Assembly: GCF_000504085.1 (NCBI RefSeq) | Contig: NC_022792.1 | Coordinates: 558,001 to 622,000, forward strand | Length of the DNA: 64,000 nt | Direction: 5' to 3' | Origin: Pseudothermotoga elfii DSM 9442 = NBRC 107921 | GTDB taxonomy: Bacteria > Thermotogota > Thermotogae > Thermotogales > DSM-5069 | Part shown: positions 2,536-39,580 of the stretch, in pieces | Layout of the letters: each line of letters starts with the position of its first letter | How positions within the stretch are numbered: position 1 is the stretch's first letter | The notes under the pieces: generated by a model | Database searches by the model: none | What the model was told of the DNA's origin: nothing | Seen by the model: only the letters and a program-made list of their open reading frames with translations | Translations under genes and position numbers: made by a program

Positions 2536-3390
2536 ATGGAAAGAGATTTTTGCGAAATAAAACTTGACGAACCTCTAAAATATCATACAAGTTTTAAAAT
2601 AGGTGGTCCTGCCCGTCTGTTCGTTGTTCCAAACTCAATCGAGGGGCTGATTTGTGCTCTGAGCCATTTCCCGGATGCGAAAATCCTTGGAAGGGGCACG
2701 AATATCCTGGCTCCGGATAGTGGTGTCGATGTTGTAATAAGCACAGTCAATTTAAATAAATGTTTTGTTGACGATGAATTGATTGTATGCGAGTCAGGAG
2801 CGTCATTGTTTTCGGTTTGCAAAAAGGCATCTCATAACAGTCTTTCAGGACTGGAATTTGCTTATGGTATACCGGGCTCCGTTGGTGGAGCAATATATAT
2901 GAATGCAGGAGCTTATGGTGGTCAGATTTGTGATGTTGTGGCATGGGTTGAAGTTTATGATGGTGAAAAAGTTATGACCTTAGACAGATCGCAGCTCGAG
3001 TTCAGTTATAGAAAGAGTATTTTCCAGAGAACACGATGGATGATACTCAAAGCCGCTTTTAAATTGAAAAAGGCCGATATGAATGAAATAAATAATGCTA
3101 TGGAAGAAATTATGACCAGAAGGATGGAATCTCAGCCTCTGGACATGCCAAGCGCAGGCAGTGTTTTTAAAAAACCGGGTGAAGATTTCTATGTTGCCCG
3201 GGTGATAGAAGAAATCGGGCTAAAAGGGCTGCGCGTTGGAGATGCACAAATATCTACAAAACACGCGGGATTTATAGTGAATCTCGGGGAAGCCAGATCG
3301 TCTGATGTATTGAAATTGATCGAGATAATCAGGCACCGTGTTAAGGAACATTGTGGTATTCAGCTGCAGTTAGAGGTGGAAATCTGGTGA
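2536..3390 (+). CDS. murB: UDP-N-acetylenolpyruvoylglucosamine reductase
   Basis: MurB (284 residues) reduces UDP-GlcNAc-enolpyruvate to UDP-MurNAc with NADPH and FAD, an early cytoplasmic step of peptidoglycan synthesis. Visible signatures are the FAD-binding segments HTSFKIGGPA and GRGTNIL, the GIPGSVGGAIYMNAGAYGG loop, the YRKSIF segment and the catalytic-serine motif SAGSVFKKP near residue 213. The length fits the short MurB class. The ATG at 2536 has no Shine-Dalgarno sequence, which is unusual in this window. It is the first gene of a tightly overlapping run that also holds glmM, another peptidoglycan precursor gene. Confidence 0.95.
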   Translation: MERDFCEIKLDEPLKYHTSFKIGGPARLFVVPNSIEGLICALSHFPDAKILGRGTNILAPDSGVDVVISTVNLNKCFVDDELIVCESGASLFSVCKKASHNSLSGLEFAYGIPGSVGGAIYMNAGAYGGQICDVVAWVEVYDGEKVMTLDRSQLEFSYRKSIFQRTRWMILKAAFKLKKADMNEINNAMEEIMTRRMESQPLDMPSAGSVFKKPGEDFYVARVIEEIGLKGLRVGDAQISTKHAGFIVNLGEARSSDVLKLIEIIRHRVKEHCGIQLQLEVEIW

Positions 3391-5820: not shown

Positions 5821-8800
5821 AAATAGGTTTGTGTTTGGGTTCAAGCAGCATTTCACTTTATTGTGATGAGATGCTGCCGATATGGGTCCAGCACAACGGA
5901 GATCCCTTTTCAGTACTTTCGAATTTGCTCAGAGATTTTCCAGATTCTATTCAGATTGCTTTTACTGGTCGAAAACTTAGAAGAAAGTTCAAGGTTCCTT
6001 CTTTGCCAGAGTCGGAAGCCTGCGAGCTTGCATATTCCAGTCTAAAACGAAAATATGGTGAATATCAGGCCATAGTAACTGCTGGTGGCGAAAATTTTGT
6101 CCTGTACAAACTTGGTAGCGATGGAAAAATAGCGGGTATTTATACCGGGAGCAAATGTGCTTCTGGAACAGGGGAGTTTTTCTTACAGCAAATAAAGAGA
6201 ATGGGAATAGACCTTGGGAGTATAAATTCATTCACGTATGATGGTTTATACAAACTCTCATCGAGGTGCACTGTTTTCTGCAAAAGTGATTGTACTCATG
6301 CTTTGAATAAAGGTATACCAAAAGAAATGATACTGAATGGACTTGGCAAGGTTATGGCCGATAAGATTCTTCAACTCGCCAGAGCGGCGAAAGTTGATAA
6401 AGTTTTAATTGTTGGTGGAACCACAAAAAATCCACTTATGTTAAGGCATCTTGAAAACCAAATTGAATTCACTGTACCGGAGGAAGCCACCTACTTTGAA
6501 GCGTATGGCGCATATATATGGGTATCTATGGAAAATCCACCCAGAATTGGTAAAAGCCGGTTATTTGATTTTAAACGTTCTTCAGAATTTCCTCGTCATC
6601 CACCTCTTTCTCAATTTGTTGAGCTGGTAGAATTCAAGTCGATGGACATGGGGATTCCACAAATTGATGACGAATGCGTTCTAGGAGTTGATGTGGGTTC
6701 AACAACCACGAAAGCAGTTGTTGTAAGGATCAGTGATAAAAAAATTCTTGCCAGTAGTTACCTCAGAACACTTGGTGACCCGGTAAATGCTTCAAAAAAC
6801 TGTTACAGGGAGATATTATCACAGCATCTACCTGTAAAAATAGTTGCAGTTGGCGTAACCGGCTCAGGAAGAAAAGTTGTGGGATTGCACGTGCGAACAG
6901 AAGCGGTTTACAACGAAATCATGGCTCATGCCAAAGCCGCGGCATATTTTGACCCAGAAGTTGATACTATTTTCGAAATAGGGGGTCAGGATGCAAAATA
7001 TACATATTTAAATGAAGGCGTTCCTTATGATTATGCAATGAACGAAGCTTGTTCTGCGGGAACAGGTTCTTTTCTGGAAGAAGCCGCGCGGGAAGCTCTG
7101 GGAATAAATTACACAGATATAGCCGACAGAGCTTTGAGAGGGAAAAACCCTCCCAATTTCAGCGATCAGTGTGCAGCATTTATTAACAGTGATATCAAGA
7201 CAGCCATTCAGGATGGTATTTCTTCTGAGGATATATGTGCTGGCTTAGTCTATTCAATATGTATGAACTATATGAATAGGGTAAAAGGAAACAGACCTGT
7301 TGGCAACAAACTTTTTGCGCAGGGAGGAACATGCTACAACAAAGCTGTGCCCATAGCTTTTGCGGCACTCACCGGTAAAAGAGTTGTTGTACCTCCTTAT
7401 CCGGGGTTGATGGGAGCTTACGGCGTGGCTCTGATAACAATTGAAAATTTACAAAAAGGTATCCTCAAAAAAAATCTGTATGATCTCAAAGAACTCGCAG
7501 ATCGCCAAGTGAAGTATTTGAAACCGTTTGTTTGTAAAGGCGGCAAAAGTGGATGTGATAGAAAATGCAATATCAGTGTGATAGAAATTGATGGTAAGCG
7601 GGTACCTTTTGGTGGCTCGTGCAATTTATATGAAAATATCAGGGAAAATAGAGTAACCGATGATACACTTGATTTTGTCAAAAAAAGAGAAAACCTTCTT
7701 TATTCGATTCCTCGTGTTGAAAATGCGCAAAAAAGAATAGGATTGAGCCGTTCATTTGCTATGAATAGCTTGTTTCCATTCTTTTCGGCTTTTTTTGCTC
7801 ACATGGGATTTGAGATTGTTTTACCTGATGAACCTGATGAACATGCCAAAGATATCATGGGAGCAGAGTTTTGTTTTCCTGTCGAACAATCCCATGGCTT
7901 TTTGATTTCATTGCTCAGAAAAAAACCTGATTATATTTTTATTCCAAAAATTAGAGCCATAAAAATTGACCATTCGAGCAGTAAAGGTGTCTTTTGTCCA
8001 TTTGTCCAAAGTGAATATGATTGGCTTAAGGCAGACATAAGTGAATTGGAGAATGTGAACATTTTAAGCTGCAGGATAGATTTCACAGAGAAACCTGACA
8101 GTGTTATCAAATCTTTGTATAAAATGCTTGAAAAAGCTGGTTTTAAATTGCGTGATGTTGAGAGAGCATATTCAGCAGGTATGCAAGCCCAAAAAAATTT
8201 TGGAGAGAAATTGAAGGAATTTGGTGTTGAATTTCTCAAAAAAGTCAGAGAGTTTGGAACGGGAATAGTAATTTTTGGGAGATCTTATAATGCCTTTCTG
8301 AGTTATGCCAATCTCGGAATTCCAAAAAAGATAGCAAGTTATGGTTATCCTGTTTCGAGTTTTGATATGTTGCCATTTGAAGATAAGAGTGGTTATGAAA
8401 ACATGTACTGGGCATGGGGAGAAATGATATTAAAAGCAGCAAGATATGTCAAAAATATGCCAGATCTTTACCCTGTTTATATAACCAATTTTAGCTGCGG
8501 GCCAGATTCTTTTGTAATATCCTATTTTAAAGAAATAATGAAAGGCAAGCCGGCTTTAATTCTTGAGCTTGACAGCCATACAGCTGATGCAGGCATCGAA
8601 ACACGTCTGGAGGCTTTTTTTGATGTGATAAAACATAGAAAAACGAAAGTTGAGAAACCTGCAATTAACAGCTTCATGGAGGTGAAGGTGGATAAAGCAG
8701 GTGTTTTTATAAAAAAAGATGACATGGTAATTCCATGGACAGATAGAAGGGTAAGACTTGTATTTCCAACAATGGGAGCGTTTGGCGCATCCTGTTTAGT

Positions 8801-32398: not shown

Positions 32399-32848
32399 TT
32401 ATTTCTTAAGAAAACCAATCAATTCTTCGATATCTGGTAGTTCTTCTATTGGATAGATTTTATAAAAGATTACTACCTTGTTTTCATCCAGAATAACATT
32501 GGCTCGTTCTGAAAAGCCATCTTTTTCTCGAAACAAACCGAATGATTTTGCGATTTCGCCATGTGGCCAGAAATCAGTAATCAGGGGCAATTTTTTAATA
32601 TTTAAAGACTCCGCCCATGCTTTTTTGCTGGGAAGTGGATCGACACTTACTCCGAAGGGAGCAACATTCAATTTGGCAAAAACGTCGTATTTTTCTTCAA
32701 TTGAAAGCATTTGTTTGCTGCAGATAGATGTCCATGCAAGCGGATGAAAAGAAAGGAGCACCTTCTTTTGCAAATGATAAAGTTTTTCTATTTTTCCGTT
32801 ATGGTCTTTTAGCGATAAATTATCAATTTTTTTCCCCAAAAATTCCAT
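32399..32848 (-). CDS. peroxiredoxin (AhpC/TSA family)
   Basis: A 149-residue thioredoxin-fold peroxidase. The peroxidatic Cys is in LAWTSICSKQM near residue 43 (TxxC form; the usual preceding Pro is in HPLAW), and the conserved Arg is probably that of SERANVILDE. No second Cys is evident elsewhere, so it may be a 1-Cys (AhpE/Bcp-like) enzyme. It removes peroxides with an external thiol donor. ATG 32848 follows GGGGTTGAT. It starts 4 bases after the korB stop and so is likely made with the oxygen-sensitive ferredoxin oxidoreductase. Confidence 0.82.
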   Translation of the reverse strand: MEFLGKKIDNLSLKDHNGKIEKLYHLQKKVLLSFHPLAWTSICSKQMLSIEEKYDVFAKLNVAPFGVSVDPLPSKKAWAESLNIKKLPLITDFWPHGEIAKSFGLFREKDGFSERANVILDENKVVIFYKIYPIEELPDIEELIGFLKK

Positions 32849-32852
32849 TTTA

Positions 32853-33707
32853 TCAACCCCTTCTGATATCTAAAATTTCCTTTATTTTTGCAAGATCGTG
32901 TTTTCTTTTAAAAATTGCATCCCTGTTTTTAGAATAAATTGGTAATTGCTCTTCAAAAGTAGGTTTTTCCTGTTTGTAAAATATTCCCAGTGGTAGGGGG
33001 TCTACTTCTATTGCTTTCGCAAAAGCGGCAGATATATCCGAAGGATTGTGGTTTTTGAAATAATATGTGTGCTCCTTAAACCATTTATATGTATTTATTT
33101 TGTTAAAAGTGACACATGGTTGAAGAATATCAACAATGGCCAGTCCTTTATGAGTAATAGCCTGTTTGATTATTTCTTTTGTTTGCTCTGTGTCTGCACA
33201 GTACGCCCTTGCAACAAAAGATGCTCTCTGAGAAATTGCCAGAGATATAGGATTTATTGGATCAGATATTGTTCCCTGAATCTGCACAGGTGTTGTGAAT
33301 CCTTTTGGGCTTGTAGGAGAAGCTTGCCCTTTAGTCAAACCATATACCATATTGTTGTGAATCAAGACTGTTATATCAGGATTTCTTCTTATTGTGTGTA
33401 ACAGGTGGTTACCCCCTTCACCGTACATACATCCATCCCCACTTTCAGCTATTACTATTAAATCGGGGTTACAGGCTTTTATTGCGGTTGCTACAGGTAA
33501 ACTTCTTCCGTGAAGCCCGTTAAAATAATTACACTTTATGTACTGAGGTGCTTTCGCTGCCTGTCCTATTCCTGAAACTATTACCAGTTTTTCTGGAGGG
33601 ATATTTAATTCCTGGAGAGTCTTTCTCAGTATATCATGTATAGCGTAGTTACCACACCCTGGGCACCAGGCAATGTCGATATTTGGAATATTATATTCTG
33701 TATTCAT
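32853..33707 (-). CDS. korB: 2-oxoacid:ferredoxin oxidoreductase, beta subunit
   Basis: A 284-residue TPP-binding beta subunit. It has IAWCPGCGNYAIHD at the start (CxxC cluster ligands), GIGQAAKAPQY, the TPP/Mg motif GDGCMYGEGGNHLLH near residue 93 with NNMVYGLTKGQASPTSP, and further cysteines in CVTFNK. These enzymes oxidise 2-oxoglutarate or other 2-oxoacids to acyl-CoA with reduction of ferredoxin. The two-subunit layout with a fused alpha is the common Kor/Oor form. It overlaps the alpha gene by 4 bases; GGAGGGAGAAGT precedes ATG 33707. Confidence 0.88.
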   Translation of the reverse strand: MNTEYNIPNIDIAWCPGCGNYAIHDILRKTLQELNIPPEKLVIVSGIGQAAKAPQYIKCNYFNGLHGRSLPVATAIKACNPDLIVIAESGDGCMYGEGGNHLLHTIRRNPDITVLIHNNMVYGLTKGQASPTSPKGFTTPVQIQGTISDPINPISLAISQRASFVARAYCADTEQTKEIIKQAITHKGLAIVDILQPCVTFNKINTYKWFKEHTYYFKNHNPSDISAAFAKAIEVDPLPLGIFYKQEKPTFEEQLPIYSKNRDAIFKRKHDLAKIKEILDIRRG

Positions 33708-35398
33708 ACTTCTCCCTCCTCTGTAAATTGCTCAAATACATTTTTTATTTCCTCAACGCTGAAGGGCATACCGTCATATTTCGTAACCTTCTTTGAATGG
33801 TCGAGATTTGCAAAAGTTTTTAACAAGGAAGCAAACTGCGAGGTAAAGTTGTTCTCTATGATGACAACTTTCTTTGCCATATCAAAATATTTCTTTAAGT
33901 CCCTCGGCAATGGGTAAAGTTGTACCAAATGCAAGACAGCTATGTTTTCAAATGATTGTGCGGCTTCTTTCACAATTTCCTTTGTTGATCCAAAGCATAC
34001 AGCAAGGACTTCATAACCGCTATTTCCTGTTAACTCTGGGGTATAGTAGTCTTTGAAATTTGACATCTTTTTCATTCTCTTTTCCACCATCATTTTTCTC
34101 ATCTCAAAATCTTCAGTTATTCTCCCCGATTCATCATGTTCATCACTATCGACACAAACTAATCCTTCACCCCATCCCGGAATACCTCTTGGTGATATAC
34201 CTTTTTGTGTTAACTTGTATCTTAAATAATCAGAATCAGTTTTTATTAAATAATTTTCTATATTCTCAGGTAAAGGTACATTCTCAATGTTGTAAATCAT
34301 ATCCATCAAGTACTGGTCTGTTAGAATCAGAGCGGGTATCTGATATTTATCAGCAATCTGAAAAGCTTTCCAGGAGCATAAAAATGCCTCTTCTAAATTT
34401 CCTGGCGCGTAGATTACACGGGGAAATTCACCATGCCCTGCATACAGGGCAAACATGAGGTCAGCCTGTTCGGTTCTTGTTGGTAAACCTGTTGCAGGTC
34501 CAGGTCTTTGCGCTAAATGTACAACTATTGGGCTTTCTATCATCCCGGCGAGGCTCAGCCCCTCAGTCATAAGAGCAAATCCACCTCCAGATGTCGTGAC
34601 CATGGCCCTTCCCCCAGCGTACCACGCTCCAAGAGCCATGTTGATTGCAGATATTTCGTCTTCGGCCTGCTCGACAATAAGATCGAAATTGTCGGAAAGC
34701 TTTGCTAATTGCACTAAAACTCCTGTTGATGGCGACATGGGGTATGAAGAGATAAAGTTGCATCCGCCGGCTAAAGCGCCGAATGCAACTGCTTCAGCAC
34801 CGCTCAGCAGAAATTGATCACATATTTGTTTATTTTGCTTCAGCTTGGTAATCGAAAGCTTCTTTTTCGATGCAAGACCATTCTTATATCCGGATTTTAC
34901 CGCCTCAAGATTCTGGAATATTACTTCTTTGCTCTTTTTTGAAAAATACTGTTTGACAATGTTCATGGTATTTTCAAGATCAACTCCCAGTAAAGCTGTT
35001 GCAAAACCAATCATCACAGAATTTGCATAAATTTTGTTTCCCAGTGCACTGGCAGTCTTCAAAAGAGGTATGCGGAGCACCTTCAAAGTATCATCGATAC
35101 CTGGAAACTCCTCATCAACCACCAGAATCGAATCACTGCTTAATCTGTTTGATATACGTTTTAAATGCGAGACATCGTTTGATAAAAAGAGAGCAAAATC
35201 TGCTTTCTGTTTGAAAGCACGCACCGGTATATCGCTGACTCTTATTAAAGTAGAGTTACTTCCTCCTCTTACTCTTGACATATACTCTTTATAGCTGAAG
35301 ACGTTCAATCCGGCTTTTTTGAAAATTTTTGGCAGTAAAACTTCAACTGTTTGAATACCTTGCCCTGCTTCACCAGCAATAATAAAGGAATACTCCAT
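33704..35398 (-). CDS. korA: 2-oxoacid:ferredoxin oxidoreductase, fused gamma-alpha subunit
   Basis: A 564-residue subunit. Residues 1-180 are a gamma-type domain (IIAGEAGQGIQTVEVLLPKIF, SRVRGGSNSTLIRVS) and the rest is the alpha part (AVAFGALAGGCNFISSYPMSPSTGV, VEQAEDEISAINMALGAWYAGGRAMVTTSGGGFALMTE, then RPGPATGLPTRTEQADLMFA). This fusion is usual in the KorA/VorA type. ATG 35398 is chosen because the GGAG at 35411-35408 lies 9 bases before it and directly abuts the earlier in-frame GTG at 35407. The substrate (2-oxoglutarate, pyruvate or branched 2-oxoacids) cannot be decided from motifs. Confidence 0.88.
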   Translation of the reverse strand: MEYSFIIAGEAGQGIQTVEVLLPKIFKKAGLNVFSYKEYMSRVRGGSNSTLIRVSDIPVRAFKQKADFALFLSNDVSHLKRISNRLSSDSILVVDEEFPGIDDTLKVLRIPLLKTASALGNKIYANSVMIGFATALLGVDLENTMNIVKQYFSKKSKEVIFQNLEAVKSGYKNGLASKKKLSITKLKQNKQICDQFLLSGAEAVAFGALAGGCNFISSYPMSPSTGVLVQLAKLSDNFDLIVEQAEDEISAINMALGAWYAGGRAMVTTSGGGFALMTEGLSLAGMIESPIVVHLAQRPGPATGLPTRTEQADLMFALYAGHGEFPRVIYAPGNLEEAFLCSWKAFQIADKYQIPALILTDQYLMDMIYNIENVPLPENIENYLIKTDSDYLRYKLTQKGISPRGIPGWGEGLVCVDSDEHDESGRITEDFEMRKMMVEKRMKKMSNFKDYYTPELTGNSGYEVLAVCFGSTKEIVKEAAQSFENIAVLHLVQLYPLPRDLKKYFDMAKKVVIIENNFTSQFASLLKTFANLDHSKKVTKYDGMPFSVEEIKNVFEQFTEEGEV

Positions 35399-35508
35399 AA
35401 AACTCACTCCTTAAAATTTTGGAAAAACAATAAAAGTTAAGGCTTGTTTTATTTAATTCTATCACAAGTTTTACTTTTCAAGTTGTAGAATCTTTTTGGA
35501 GAGATTGC

Positions 35509-37047
35509 ATGTTTTTAGCTATAACCCTTTTGAGCCGTGTGGCATTGTTAGGATTAATAGTATTTGTTGTGATTCAGTCTTATTCTGCCAGGATTTCACT
35601 GGCGAAAATCTTCAACACTAAAAAACCCTATATACTTGGTTTGCTTGGTGGCATCTTTGGTGTGGCAGGTAATTTCCTTGGTTTGCCTTACAAAGGTGCA
35701 ATAATCAATTTTCGAGATATGGGTATAATTGTTACAGCCCTTTATGGGGGTTTTCCAGCGGCTTTGATAGGCAGCACGATTGCTTCCATTCACAGATATT
35801 TACTTGGCGGTCCAGCGGCTTTTGCGTGTGCCCTGGGGACAATCGGCGCCGGGCTATTTTCAAGTGTTTTTAGAAAACGATTTTTCCATTCGAAAAACAA
35901 AATTCTTGCAGGGAGCGTAGTTGCTATTTTTGCGGAGTTAATACACCTATCGATAGCCTATTTTTTTATATACCCACCAGAACTGGCGGCAGATATCGTT
36001 TTCAATGCACTAATCCCGATGACTGTGTCGAATTTTCTCGGTGTTGGACTCACACTCACTCTGGTTAAACAGAGTGAGCTGTATGTAAAAAATTTTTCCT
36101 CGCAGATTTTCTCAATCACACTTAGAGTTTTTGAAAGCGCTGTTAGACTACTGGAAAATCCAAATATGGAGAATCTAAACCTCTTTTCAAAAGATCTGGC
36201 AAAAATACTGAATGTCGATAAATTAACAATAAAACTCGAGGATGAGTTTAAACCAGAGAGAAAAAAGGGCGAATGCAGGCTCTTTATCCCACTAATTTCC
36301 AGAGGAAAGATCATCGGTCGAATCGTCGTTGAAAATCGAGATGGTTTCGACGAGGACCAGATTTTCATGATAAAGCAAATTTCAAAGTTCGTTGAGATAG
36401 TTGTTATTGGTGCTACAGCTGTTCGTGAGGCAATACTTGCCCGGGAAGCAATGATGAGAGATTTCATGTCCAAGTTAGGTCCACATTTTATTTTCAATAC
36501 ACTTGCAAGCATCAGATATCTTACTGTTAATAATGCAAATGACGCTGTAAAGATGATCGATAATCTATCAGAGTTATTGAGATATTATTTCAAAAATCAG
36601 AAGGCTTTTGTCTCTCTTGATGAAGAAATCAAAATAATCGAGTGTTATTTGTCGATAATGAAAGCGAGATATGGCGATATTTTGAGTTATCATATAAATG
36701 TAACAGGAGATTTTAGAAATCATCCTGTTCCGCCCATGATTCTTCAACCAGTAATTGAGAATGCAGTTGAGCATGGCGAAAAAAATGGAAAGATCTATGT
36801 AAAAATAGAAGCTGAAAAATATGGCGATTATATGATTTTGAAAGTTTCTGACAGCGGTAAAGGTTTGTCCAGGGGTTTTAAGAAAGGCGTTGGAATGAAA
36901 CTCCTGGAAACAAGATTAGAAAATATTTACTCAAAAAAAGCGAGTGTAAAATATGTAAACGATAACGGACTGACAGTTTTAATAAAAATTCCGCTGGAGT
37001 GTGAAAGTGTGAATATGTATGATAAAAGTGGCTATTCTGGAAGATGA
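35509..37047 (+). CDS. LytS-family sensor histidine kinase
   Basis: A 512-residue sensor with an N-terminal 5TM-LYT membrane domain (about residues 1-180; note KGAIINFRDMGIIVTALYGG and ASIHRYLLGG), a GAF-like domain (about 200-305), the His-kinase box HFIFNTLASIRYLT around 325 (His in PHFIFN) and a HATPase domain (PPMILQPVIENAVEHGEKNG, VSDSGKGLS, GVGMKLLETRLENIY). LytS-type kinases sense small metabolites or envelope state; the BtsS/YpdA relatives respond to pyruvate. ATG 35509 follows GGAGAGATTGC. It overlaps its response regulator gene by 29 bases, so the two form a pair. Confidence 0.9.
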   Translation: MFLAITLLSRVALLGLIVFVVIQSYSARISLAKIFNTKKPYILGLLGGIFGVAGNFLGLPYKGAIINFRDMGIIVTALYGGFPAALIGSTIASIHRYLLGGPAAFACALGTIGAGLFSSVFRKRFFHSKNKILAGSVVAIFAELIHLSIAYFFIYPPELAADIVFNALIPMTVSNFLGVGLTLTLVKQSELYVKNFSSQIFSITLRVFESAVRLLENPNMENLNLFSKDLAKILNVDKLTIKLEDEFKPERKKGECRLFIPLISRGKIIGRIVVENRDGFDEDQIFMIKQISKFVEIVVIGATAVREAILAREAMMRDFMSKLGPHFIFNTLASIRYLTVNNANDAVKMIDNLSELLRYYFKNQKAFVSLDEEIKIIECYLSIMKARYGDILSYHINVTGDFRNHPVPPMILQPVIENAVEHGEKNGKIYVKIEAEKYGDYMILKVSDSGKGLSRGFKKGVGMKLLETRLENIYSKKASVKYVNDNGLTVLIKIPLECESVNMYDKSGYSGR

Positions 37048-37690
37048 GCAGCTTGCCAGGGACAATTTAGAGCAGTTGATCAGAAAATATAGTGAATTTG
37101 AGCTGGTGGGATCTTTTTCAACAGGAAGAGAATTGTTGAGACATCTGAAAGATATCGATGTTGTATTTTTGGATGTGCGGCTTTCTGGCGAATCTGGTTT
37201 AGATGTTTCAAAAAAAATAAAAAGTACGGGTATCGTCTTTGTAACAGCATATCCAGAATATGCCGTGGAAGCTTTTGAAGTAAATGCCATAGATTATCTG
37301 GTTAAACCTGTGAGTGAAGAGCGATTCAGTGAATGTGTTGAAAAAATCTCACAGATTTGTTCACGATCGCTTGCCAAACTTCCTGTAAAAGATTTTGATG
37401 GAATATTATTGATTGATTTTAAAGATATTCTTTTCATAGAAGCTTTTGGGAAAAAATGCATGGCATGCACAATAAATGGAGAATATGAAGTTTATCATTG
37501 GAATATATCCCATCTTGAGAGAAGACTTCCTCGAGAATTCGTCAGAGTTCACAAGTCTTATATTTGCAACCTCGAGCACGTGAAAAAAATATTATGTTCT
37601 CCATGTTTTCAAATAGAGATGGAGAACTCCAAATTGATACCTGTTTCGAAAAAATATCAGAAATTTGTCAAGTCTGTTTTGTTGCGTTGA
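37019..37690 (+). CDS. LytTR-family response regulator
   Basis: A 223-residue regulator with a receiver domain (residues 1-120: acidic LEDEQ, phospho-Asp in VVFLDVRLSGESG near 53, Thr/Ala in VTAYPEYAVEAF and Lys in VKPVS) and a C-terminal LytTR DNA-binding domain (about 125-222: ILFIEAFGKKCMACT, SHLERRLPREFVRVHKSYICNLEHVKKI). LytTR proteins bind pairs of 9-base direct repeats spaced about two helical turns. A candidate pair sits just downstream in front of the cstA gene, its likely target. Confidence 0.92.
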   Translation: MIKVAILEDEQLARDNLEQLIRKYSEFELVGSFSTGRELLRHLKDIDVVFLDVRLSGESGLDVSKKIKSTGIVFVTAYPEYAVEAFEVNAIDYLVKPVSEERFSECVEKISQICSRSLAKLPVKDFDGILLIDFKDILFIEAFGKKCMACTINGEYEVYHWNISHLERRLPREFVRVHKSYICNLEHVKKILCSPCFQIEMENSKLIPVSKKYQKFVKSVLLR

Positions 37691-37706
37691 AGATTATTTT
37701 CCACTC

Positions 37707-37736
37707 ATTTGTTCCAAAAAAAATGCTATTTATTCC
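37707..37736 (+). promoter_or_regulatory. candidate LytTR operator before cstA
   Basis: ATTTGTTCC at 37707-37715 and ATTTATTCC at 37728-37736 are direct repeats differing at one base. Their starts are 21 bases apart, the spacing of known LytTR sites. They lie in the 105-base gap between the response regulator and cstA, upstream of a weak TAGAAT at 37759-37764. Confidence 0.5.
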
Positions 37737-37795
37737 CTCCTTGTTTTTCCTAGACCATAGAATAGTTAATACAAACTAAGGTGGGAGGGAAGGAA

Positions 37796-39517
37796 ATGAA
37801 CTCGCTGGTGCTTATGTTGATCTCTTTTTTTGGTTATATAATTGCGTACAACACATATGGAAAATGGCTTTCAAGGAAATTATTTCAGCTTAAGGATGAT
37901 AATCCAGTACCTTCAAAGAAATTTCAGGATGGAGTTGATTATGTTCCTACCAAGAGACATATTTTACTCGGTCACCACTTTACCACAATAGCAGGAACAG
38001 GACCCATAGTTGGTCCTGCAATAGGTGTCATTTGGGGTTGGCTGCCAGCATTCCTCTGGGTATTCCTTGGGCCAATATTTGCAGGTGGTGTTCATGATTT
38101 TGCCTCGTTAGTTATCTCATCACGACATGGTGGTAAAACGCTTGGTGAGATGACAAAGGGAATAGTTTCAAACAGGGTAGGGGTGATCTTTCTAATTCTG
38201 ATTCAATTTCTTCTCTGGTTAGTTGTTGCAGTTTTTGCTATGATTATGGGAATTTTATTTGACATGTATCCTCAAAGTGTCCTGAGCATCTGGATGGAGG
38301 TTCCCATAGCTATTTGGGTTGGTTATATGGTCTATAAGAAGGGAAAAAAGGATACCTTTTATTCTATCTTGGGTTTGATACTTCTCTATGTTTTTGCTGT
38401 TATTGGTATATATCTTCCCATGAAGATACCTCAAATGGGCCCTGTTTCACCGATTGTAACCTGGATAGTGATACTCCTTGTTTATGCTTATTTTGCCTCT
38501 ACTTTGCCGGTGCAAACACTTTTACAACCGCGTGATTATATAAACTCACACGAGCTCTTGGTACTCATGGCTGTTCTCTCAATAGGGGTTATAATATCAA
38601 GACCACAGGTAGTAGCTCCAGTTTATCAGCATGCGCCTGGTGCCCCAAATCTGTGGCCTGTTCTTTTTGTGACGATAGCTTGCGGAGCTATAAGCGGTTT
38701 TCACAGTTTTGCTTCCTCAGGAACGACAGTCAAACAACTTGAAAGAGAAACAGATGCGCAATTTGTCGGTTATGGCGGTATGCTTCTTGAGGGAGCTCTT
38801 GCGACATTAATCATCATAGCAGTGACAGCTGGTGTGGGAATGTTCGGAGCCGGAAGTTCTGGATATTTCAATTATTACTCCTCTTGGTCCACAACCGCTG
38901 GAGCAGGGTTAGCTGCACAATTGAAAGCAATTGTTGATGGTGCTTCTAATTTAATGAAAACAGTAGGTATACCTAAGGAATTGGGAGCTACATTAATGGC
39001 AATTTTTGTTGTGTCTTTTGCTGGAACAACACTTGATTCTGCTACGAGAATACAGAGATTCGGATTAGAAGAGCTGTTCAGGGGCAAAGGCAAAAAACCG
39101 ATAGGACCTTTTAAAAATAGATATTTTACAACTTTTGTCGTAGTAATAGCCGCATTCGGACTATGTATGGTTTCACCTGACGGAAAAGGTGCATTAAAAT
39201 TGTGGCCAGTGTTTGGCGCGTTGAATCAGCTTCTTGCCGGCCTTGCCTTGATGATAGCAACAGTATACTTAGCTAAAAAGAGAAAACCTATCTGGCCGAC
39301 CTTGCTTCCAATGATCTTTATGCTTCTCATGACTGTCTGGGCTACTATTTCAAATCTAACCGGTTATATTCGGTCACAAAACTGGCTTCTTGTTTTCATA
39401 ACACTTGTTACGTTAATTATAGCTGTATGGATGATAATAGAAGCCTTTATATCGATGGCAAAAGCTTATAAGAAAAAACAGGTTTATCAGGAAGAATTCG
39501 CGAAATCTGATGAATAA
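37796..39517 (+). CDS. cstA: CstA-family carbon starvation / pyruvate transporter
   Basis: A 573-residue membrane protein of the CstA/BtsT family, with the conserved GHHFTTIAGTGPIVGPAIGVIWGW region near residue 60, GGVHDFASLVISSRHGGKTLGE, FHSFASSGTTVKQL and FAGTTLDSATRIQRF. E. coli relatives of about 700 residues carry pyruvate or peptides; this is a shorter form. The frame opens at GTG 37781, but GGGAGGGAAGG inside that extension selects ATG 37796. The upstream LytSR pair suggests induction by an external nutrient, probably pyruvate by analogy. A strong terminator follows. Confidence 0.92.
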   Translation: MNSLVLMLISFFGYIIAYNTYGKWLSRKLFQLKDDNPVPSKKFQDGVDYVPTKRHILLGHHFTTIAGTGPIVGPAIGVIWGWLPAFLWVFLGPIFAGGVHDFASLVISSRHGGKTLGEMTKGIVSNRVGVIFLILIQFLLWLVVAVFAMIMGILFDMYPQSVLSIWMEVPIAIWVGYMVYKKGKKDTFYSILGLILLYVFAVIGIYLPMKIPQMGPVSPIVTWIVILLVYAYFASTLPVQTLLQPRDYINSHELLVLMAVLSIGVIISRPQVVAPVYQHAPGAPNLWPVLFVTIACGAISGFHSFASSGTTVKQLERETDAQFVGYGGMLLEGALATLIIIAVTAGVGMFGAGSSGYFNYYSSWSTTAGAGLAAQLKAIVDGASNLMKTVGIPKELGATLMAIFVVSFAGTTLDSATRIQRFGLEELFRGKGKKPIGPFKNRYFTTFVVVIAAFGLCMVSPDGKGALKLWPVFGALNQLLAGLALMIATVYLAKKRKPIWPTLLPMIFMLLMTVWATISNLTGYIRSQNWLLVFITLVTLIIAVWMIIEAFISMAKAYKKKQVYQEEFAKSDE

Positions 39518-39546: not shown

Positions 39547-39580
39547 AATGATGTGGGGTTTACCCACATCATTTTTATTT
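39547..39580 (+). terminator. rho-independent terminator after cstA
   Basis: GATGTGGG at 39550-39557 pairs with CCCACATC at 39563-39570 around the loop GTTTA, extendable by three A-T pairs, and is followed by ATTTTTATTT. It ends the LytSR-cstA region before the ribosomal cluster. Confidence 0.85.

Follow-up and report, generated by a model that had tools for sequence, protein, structure and literature searches.

Genes and features of the locus

The window analyzed here is a stretch of 64,000 nucleotides (nt) from the genome of Pseudothermotoga elfii DSM 9442, which we take to be a heat-loving, fermenting bacterium of the phylum Thermotogota. It holds on its forward strand the genes for a sensor (lytS), a response regulator (lytTR) and a carrier (cstA), with a tandem repeat in the gap between lytTR and cstA. 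An earlier note on this DNA had read the arrangement as a complete sense-and-import module, and this reading is supported by the recurrent gene order among relatives, by conserved sites at a lag of 21 base pairs (bp), and by the match of the window to a matrix derived from relatives (p = 0.0004); on the sequence evidence, a predicted LytTR module dedicated to cstA is well supported. The features of the locus are as follows.

35509..37047, + strand: lytS, membrane sensor histidine kinase (5TM-5TMR_LYT, His_kinase and HATPase_c domains; Pfam)
37019..37690, + strand: lytTR, receiver and LytTR DNA-binding response regulator (Response_reg and LytTR domains; Pfam)
37703..37715, + strand: predicted half-site A, ACTCATTTGTTCC, including the first 9-nt repeat
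37724..37736, + strand: predicted half-site B, TGCTATTTATTCC, 21 bp downstream of A, including the second 9-nt repeat
37758..37763, + strand: -10-like hexamer TAGAAT, starting 21 nt after half-site B
37796..39517, + strand: cstA, CstA-family carrier; likely start ATG 37796, listed open reading frame start GTG 37781

The regulator genes overlap at the positions given earlier (lytS, 35509-37047; lytTR, 37019-37690), their reading frames sharing 29 bp, and the assignment of the third gene to the CstA family was borne out by a score of 461.9 bits against PF02554 (gathering cut-off, 27) that covers positions 1-560 of the 560 in the profile. The domains of LytS and LytTR scored 110, 76.2, 28.1, 64 and 67.1 bits, every one above its cut-off, and the pair has the make-up of a LytS/LytTR two-component system, i.e. 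a 5TM-LYT sensor with His_kinase and HATPase_c domains and a receiver joined to a LytTR domain. The regulator carries FVRVHKS, which conforms to the LytTR DNA-contact motif FhRhHRS (PMC4227749). Residues D52, F174, R176, H178 and K179 are invariant in the regulator alignment A1 (19 sequences), and S180 is kept in at least 90% of it. The LytTR profile PF04397 has a single match in the window's own genome (one contig, 2,169,860 bases). No GAF domain was reported in the window's LytS at E ≤ 0.001; BtsS and YpdA are described as GAF-bearing (PMC5552118). The start of cstA is more likely ATG 37796 than GTG 37781, because MNS or VNS stands at the corresponding point in 14 of 20 other loci; this ATG sits behind GGGAGGGAAGG, and the protein begins with MNS.

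Gene order and conservation among relatives

The comparison set comprised 103 genomes of the phylum, with LytTR found in 42 and CstA in 36. By coordinates, cstA lies beside lytTR in 24 of the 36 CstA-bearing genomes; one further genome (G003) was too fragmented for adjacency to be judged. Inspection of the 24 gaps by eye showed no hairpin in 13 and a hairpin in 10; the remaining one, that of L024, is about 591 bases long and holds an inverted repeat. Over 18 loci, pairwise distances correlate between regulator and carrier (r = 0.90), regulator and sensor (0.94), and sensor and carrier (0.85), with a Mantel p of 0.0005; this partly reflects the common descent of the genomes.

Conservation of both repeats in close relatives, which the earlier note had set as a check on its reading, was found in two of the three other genomes of the genus (L033 and L034; both half-sites, at exactly 21 bp) and not in the third (L032, genome G063), where A is kept and B has decayed. 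With L032 left out, the three genus members have identical columns at 15 of 26 positions in the sites and at 10 of 41 elsewhere (p = 0.006), and the pairwise excess of identity in the sites is significant for L033 against the window (p = 0.026). The lytTR gene of L032 (approx. 6419-7085) is frameshifted within the LytTR domain, lytS and cstA being open; with the degenerate half-site B, this may reflect a joint decay of site and regulator, as a single case in which a sequencing error is possible.

Some other loci of the set differ in structure. In L059 (2811-3011; genome G004) the gap between lytTR and cstA measures about 591 bases and contains perfect inverted repeats of 24 nt with 153 nt between them, which may mark a small mobile element. 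In L047 (approx. 2614-3050; G083) a short open frame appears by eye between the tandem sites and cstA, the sites themselves appearing as three copies at 21 bp. The CstA of L065 (G076, another family) is 75.5% identical to that of the window, with neither an adjoining lytSR nor a tandem site. In L046 (G041), the matches to cstA and to lytS are each split into several pieces, and a stop lies inside one of the cstA pieces; these are broken genes or assembly errors.

Tandem sites in the lytTR-cstA gap

The two repeats pointed out in the earlier note, ATTTGTTCC at 37707-37715 and ATTTATTCC at 37728-37736, are present exactly as described, 21 bp apart from start to start in the gap before cstA. Their period stands; their extent and register are revised by the comparison, which gives the 13-mers 37703-37715 and 37724-37736. 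LytTR sites are described as two repeats of 9-11 nt with 11-13 nt between them (PMC4847170), and the predicted site in the window, with 9-nt repeats 12 nt apart, has this layout.

When the gaps were matched against themselves, the 13 hairpin-less gaps gave a peak of the mean z of 2.06 at lag 21, the next being 0.61 at lag 18; in the 10 hairpin gaps lag 20 leads weakly (0.95), with 0.69 at lag 21. As an external yardstick, the 13-mer half-site of Escherichia coli YpdB (PyrR) was scored as a pair at lag 21. It reached p ≤ 0.004 in eight of the 24 linked gaps (L015, L025, L033, L034, L048, L049, L050 and L051) and p = 0.012-0.048 in three more (L035, L038 and L047), with 0.056 in the window and values above 0.1 in the 12 remaining gaps; upstream of cstA genes without lytTR, none of eight regions tested (of 11 unlinked) fell below 0.05.

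The relatives' matrix comprised 16 half-sites of eight relatives, chosen by visual inspection and with the help of the E. coli motif. It was scored with the tested sequence left out, and also with its group left out for L033/L034 and L048-L051; the test of L032 kept the same-genus L033 and L034. All 13 hairpin-less gaps gave p ≤ 0.0045, and the window pair gave p = 0.0004 with a matrix from which the window's whole genus was excluded; L024 gave p = 0.055, and three of nine hairpin gaps tested (L041 not among them) reached 0.05. None of the eight unlinked cstA genes tested had a match. The same matrix recovered the E. coli yhjX promoter (p = 0.002) and found no match at the promoters of E. coli btsT or E. 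coli cstA.

A scan of genome contigs, of which the best 80 loci were kept, none titled as belonging to this phylum, gave three with lytS, lytTR and cstA within the fetched flanks (L071, L128 and L144), which by title or recall we take to be Bacillota. For their gaps the relatives' matrix gave p = 0.022, 0.004 and 0.096 (combined, 0.0007), and the E. coli half-site gave p = 0.10, 0.31 and 0.45.

Several results weigh against an operator in the window and against a general coupling of the genes. In the 90-base gap of the window, the repeat alone is no better than chance in 2000 shuffles (p = 0.106 at lag 21, 0.27 over lags 20-22, and 0.97 over any lag of 10-45); the YpdB half-site pair reaches only p = 0.056 there; and with the relatives' matrix, the window scores 13.6 at lag 21 but 17.0 at lag 14. 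L034 and the window are not significantly more alike inside the sites (15 of 26 identical) than outside them (21 of 41; p = 0.40), six of the nine tested hairpin gaps stay short of p < 0.05 with the relatives' matrix, and 11 of the 36 CstA-bearing genomes have no adjacent lytTR, some of these being fragmented assemblies. Given its p-values at lag 21 and at any lag, the repeat alone would not carry the operator claim, and by itself it was rejected as evidence; it becomes significant only through comparison with relatives. These values for the window alone would suit a repeat that arose by chance in a gap rich in A+T, but against such an origin stand the matrix from other families, the conservation within the genus, the lag-21 peak in 13 gaps and the eight controls without a match; we consider it highly improbable, and it appears already largely refuted by comparison.

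Promoter layout and predicted targets of the regulator

The best -10-like hexamer matching at 5 of 6 positions was sought at offsets of 10-35 nt after half-site B. The distance to its start is 21 nt for the window, L033 and L034, 20 nt for L038, 30 nt for L048, L049 and L050, and 31 nt for L025 and L051 (also 19), i.e. 20-21 or 30-31 nt in nine of the nine gaps examined (of 24), from about four independent lineages; the two distances differ by about one helical turn. A sigma-70 scan listed no sigma-70-type promoter (-35 plus -10) in the window gap, and a -35 separated from the hexamer by a 17-nt spacer would coincide with the downstream end of half-site B. A -10-like hexamer just downstream of B, with no sigma-70-type match, points to an activator layout.

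The pattern YHWTTYRTTCC-N10-YHWTTYRTTCC, widened so as to include the window, has its best whole-genome match at the cstA promoter in G000, the window's own genome (no mismatch), G064 (none) and G065 (one); in G063 the cstA promoter has three mismatches, which is within noise. A wider regulon was tried as a candidate and rejected, as the matches showed no clear excess over a reversed control pattern in G063 (32 vs 30), G064 (18 vs 23) and G065 (33 vs 29); in G000, 47 matches with at most three mismatches compare with 27 for the reversed pattern. Autoregulation at lytS was likewise rejected (window, p = 0.996; at least 0.05 in eight of the 10 upstream regions tested; L050, 0.020; L051, 0.036).

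The 47 matches against 27 in G000 leave room for weak extra sites, and LytTR might repress or fine-tune cstA or act elsewhere, the repeats being part of a different operator. We regard this as improbable, since the hexamer just past site B has an activator layout, since the regulator is the sole LytTR of its genome, with no better site in G000, G064 and G065, and since eight of 10 loci have no site at p < 0.05 upstream of lytS.

One further feature lies 3' of cstA.

39547..39573, + strand: terminator-like hairpin (consensus match only)

It suggests a single-gene cstA transcript; three such hairpins were found in the scanned stretch, against 3.2 expected from shuffles.

Sensor pocket and candidate ligand

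LytS of 19 lytTR-cstA loci and of L045, which has no cstA beside it, were aligned to E. coli BtsS; L046 was left out as broken. Arg72, Arg99 and Cys110 (BtsS numbering) are kept in 20 of 20 sequences, and His382 of BtsS is aligned in the window's LytS. The three residues are also kept in four further linked LytS (L058-L061), and the LytS of L070 has all four residues of the BtsS pyruvate site. The two Arg are generic, because they occur also in 5TM-LYT proteins from genomes without lytTR (L055-L057). Cys110 is absent from L055-L057 and from the LytS of Streptococcus phocae, in all of which both Arg are present, and it is present in PyrS, in the LytS of Bacillus safensis and in three CstA-linked LytS of Bacillota.

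Other residues and scores speak against pyruvate and against a BtsR-type assignment. Position 113, Ser in BtsS, is Gly in the 19 linked LytS including the window, Ala in L045, and Ala, Ala, Thr and Thr in L058-L061; in E. coli, the S113G exchange in BtsS abolished btsT induction (PMC10653868). PyrS, a lower-affinity pyruvate sensor, has Thr at this position. The window's regulator scored 118.5 bits against the BtsR equivalog NF008677, below the curated cut-off of 246, and is for this reason not filed as BtsR. With three residues kept, and with Thr in PyrS set against the effect of S113G in BtsS, the LytS pocket appears to fit a pyruvate-like ligand, without proving it.

The same module might instead serve a ligand and cargo other than pyruvate, such as another 2-oxo or hydroxy acid, or peptides, the latter because CstA carriers are also called peptide permeases. 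In favor of such a cargo are the residues at position 113 (Gly in 19 of 23 linked LytS, Ala in two, Thr in two), the score of the window's CstA far below the cut-off of the E. coli CstA equivalog NF011590 (256.4 vs 1188 bits), the lack, in all 103 genomes of the phylum set, of the PF04328 partner gene (YbdD/YjiX) that lies beside E. coli cstA and btsT, and a 2-oxoacid oxidoreductase of unsettled substrate adjoining lytS in the window. However, both pyruvate-contacting Arg and the discriminating Cys110 are kept, PyrS itself carries Thr at 113, and the oxidoreductase was not found around lytS in three other genomes of the genus; we judge a non-pyruvate cargo rather unlikely, though well ahead of the alternatives considered above.

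Proposed mechanism

The domains, the gene order, the conserved tandem operator, the -10-like spacing and most of the ligand-site residues are given by computation. They are probably best explained by a pyruvate-type LytS that phosphorylates LytTR, which then binds the tandem sites and activates cstA. LytS, as a membrane receptor of the BtsS/PyrS type, would bind a small extracellular carboxylate, most likely pyruvate, and would autophosphorylate on its conserved His, with transfer of the phosphate to D52 of LytTR. The two half-sites (37703-37715 and 37724-37736), which face the same side of the DNA helix at a distance of two turns, would be occupied by a pair of LytTR molecules. As site B lies at the upstream edge of the would-be -35, bound LytTR would recruit RNA polymerase to the -10-only promoter TAGAAT (37758-37763) and turn cstA on, and CstA would import the substrate that LytS senses. 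For the window module, we infer phosphotransfer, activation rather than repression, and pyruvate as both signal and cargo.

Comparison with known systems

The PyrS/PyrR (YpdA/YpdB)-yhjX system of E. coli resembles the window module in its LytS/LytTR pair. The YpdB oligonucleotide holds GGCATTTCATTCC and GGCATTTCATGCC at 21 bp spacing (PMC4847170), and the operator sequence GGCATTTCATTCC at 21 bp matches the relatives' consensus TACCTTTCATTCC at 10 of 13 positions; E. coli yhjX has a third half-site copy 21 bp further upstream. In its LytTR domain, YpdB, at about 33% identity to the window's regulator, also has the E-x-x-x-K stretch that is invariant in A1 (E141, K145) and that BtsR is without. 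The systems differ in that the target of YpdB is described as an MFS-type antiporter (PMC5552118), whereas the predicted target in the window is a CstA carrier, and in the -10 spacing, which is 15 nt (by eye) at yhjX and 20-21 or 30-31 nt in the relatives' gaps. The window's own half-sites are more diverged from the YpdB site (p = 0.056) than those of its relatives.

BtsS/BtsR-btsT of E. coli shares with the window three of the four pyruvate-site residues in the sensor, a LytTR regulator and a CstA-family target. However, btsT is unlinked to btsSR in E. coli whereas cstA adjoins lytTR in the window, the btsT promoter has no matrix match, Ser113 of BtsS is Gly in the window, and the regulator lies below the BtsR cut-off. 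Identities of 31% to BtsR and 33% to YpdB do not decide on orthology to either, which was dropped as a candidate assignment. The parallel with YpdB and BtsR that the earlier note drew from the spacing holds for YpdB in relatives at the level of sequence, beyond spacing, and not for the btsT promoter.

In Bacillus subtilis, LytST reportedly controls pftAB. The PftAB carrier is of the LrgAB/holin-like kind, not CstA. It is described as a pyruvate carrier (PMC5626966). In Desulfovibrio vulgaris, of another phylum, mapping of the LytR-type regulator DVU0596 gave as targets two cstA genes that follow its own response regulator-histidine kinase operon, besides the kdp operon (PMC3333781). LytTR control of a neighboring cstA is known in D. 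vulgaris, as BtsSR-btsT and YpdAB-yhjX are in E. coli; no paper on the module in Thermotogota was found among the open-licence papers listed. Homologues of LytTR in phages comprise 58 records, with identities below 60%, and were set aside as of no use.

A hairpin at the second half-site

In nine of the 10 hairpin gaps a hairpin of the type GACCGTTCAGGTC, flanked by A/T runs, lies by eye where half-site B is expected (L044 excepted). The terminator-like hairpin at the second half-site was seen in L035, L036, L037, L039, L040, L041, L042, L043 and L046. The best lag-21 pair of the matrix, which was trained on the other group, falls on the hairpin in eight of nine gaps tested (L037, one arm only). 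RNA folding gave z = -2.4 (L035) and -2.9 (L039) for hairpin gaps, and no such fold for the gaps of the window (+1.3) and L034 (+0.7). The hairpin is read as a putative terminator that shares bases with the operator, the boldest and least tested part of the analysis. Between lytTR and cstA of L041 (6671-6965) there are two 118-nt tandem copies, 99% alike, that carry the hairpin/half-site, and a third copy of 59 nt at the same spacing.

Tentatively, the operator grammar of the PyrR/YpdB type may be that of an old pyruvate operator, shared on different carriers by Gammaproteobacteria and this thermophile phylum, with half-site B built, in one group of the phylum, into an intrinsic terminator hairpin between lytTR and cstA. 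The proposed grammar would consist of a half-site close to CATTTCATTCC, a 21-bp period, and a -10 that follows after 20-21 or 30-31 nt, on an invariant face of the helix.

Neighboring genes upstream of lytS

Beside lytS, positions 32399-35407 of the window hold a 2-oxoacid:ferredoxin oxidoreductase pair (fused gamma-alpha; beta) and a peroxiredoxin; the gene at the other flank of this segment is presumably tmcAL-like. The segment was considered as a part of the module and rejected, being absent near lytS in three of three other genomes of the genus (stretches of 14-16 kb). The flanking genes at both of its ends are kept in these genomes, and the segment thus looks inserted or lost.

Biological implications

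Sequence searches with the window's CstA and the E. coli protein turned up no CstA chain of solved structure, and heat-stable LytS and CstA would help structural work. It is surprising that the sites of the relatives are nearly identical to the YpdB site, because LytTR sites are said in the YpdB binding study to share a layout but no common consensus (PMC4847170). The likeness suggests that the sequence of a LytTR operator can persist from one phylum to another. If the reading of the hairpin group is true, one element would both end the regulator transcript and serve as the operator of the carrier. For the thermophile phylum, pyruvate-type LytS/LytTR control of a CstA carrier would be extended to these bacteria, with a concrete predicted operator.

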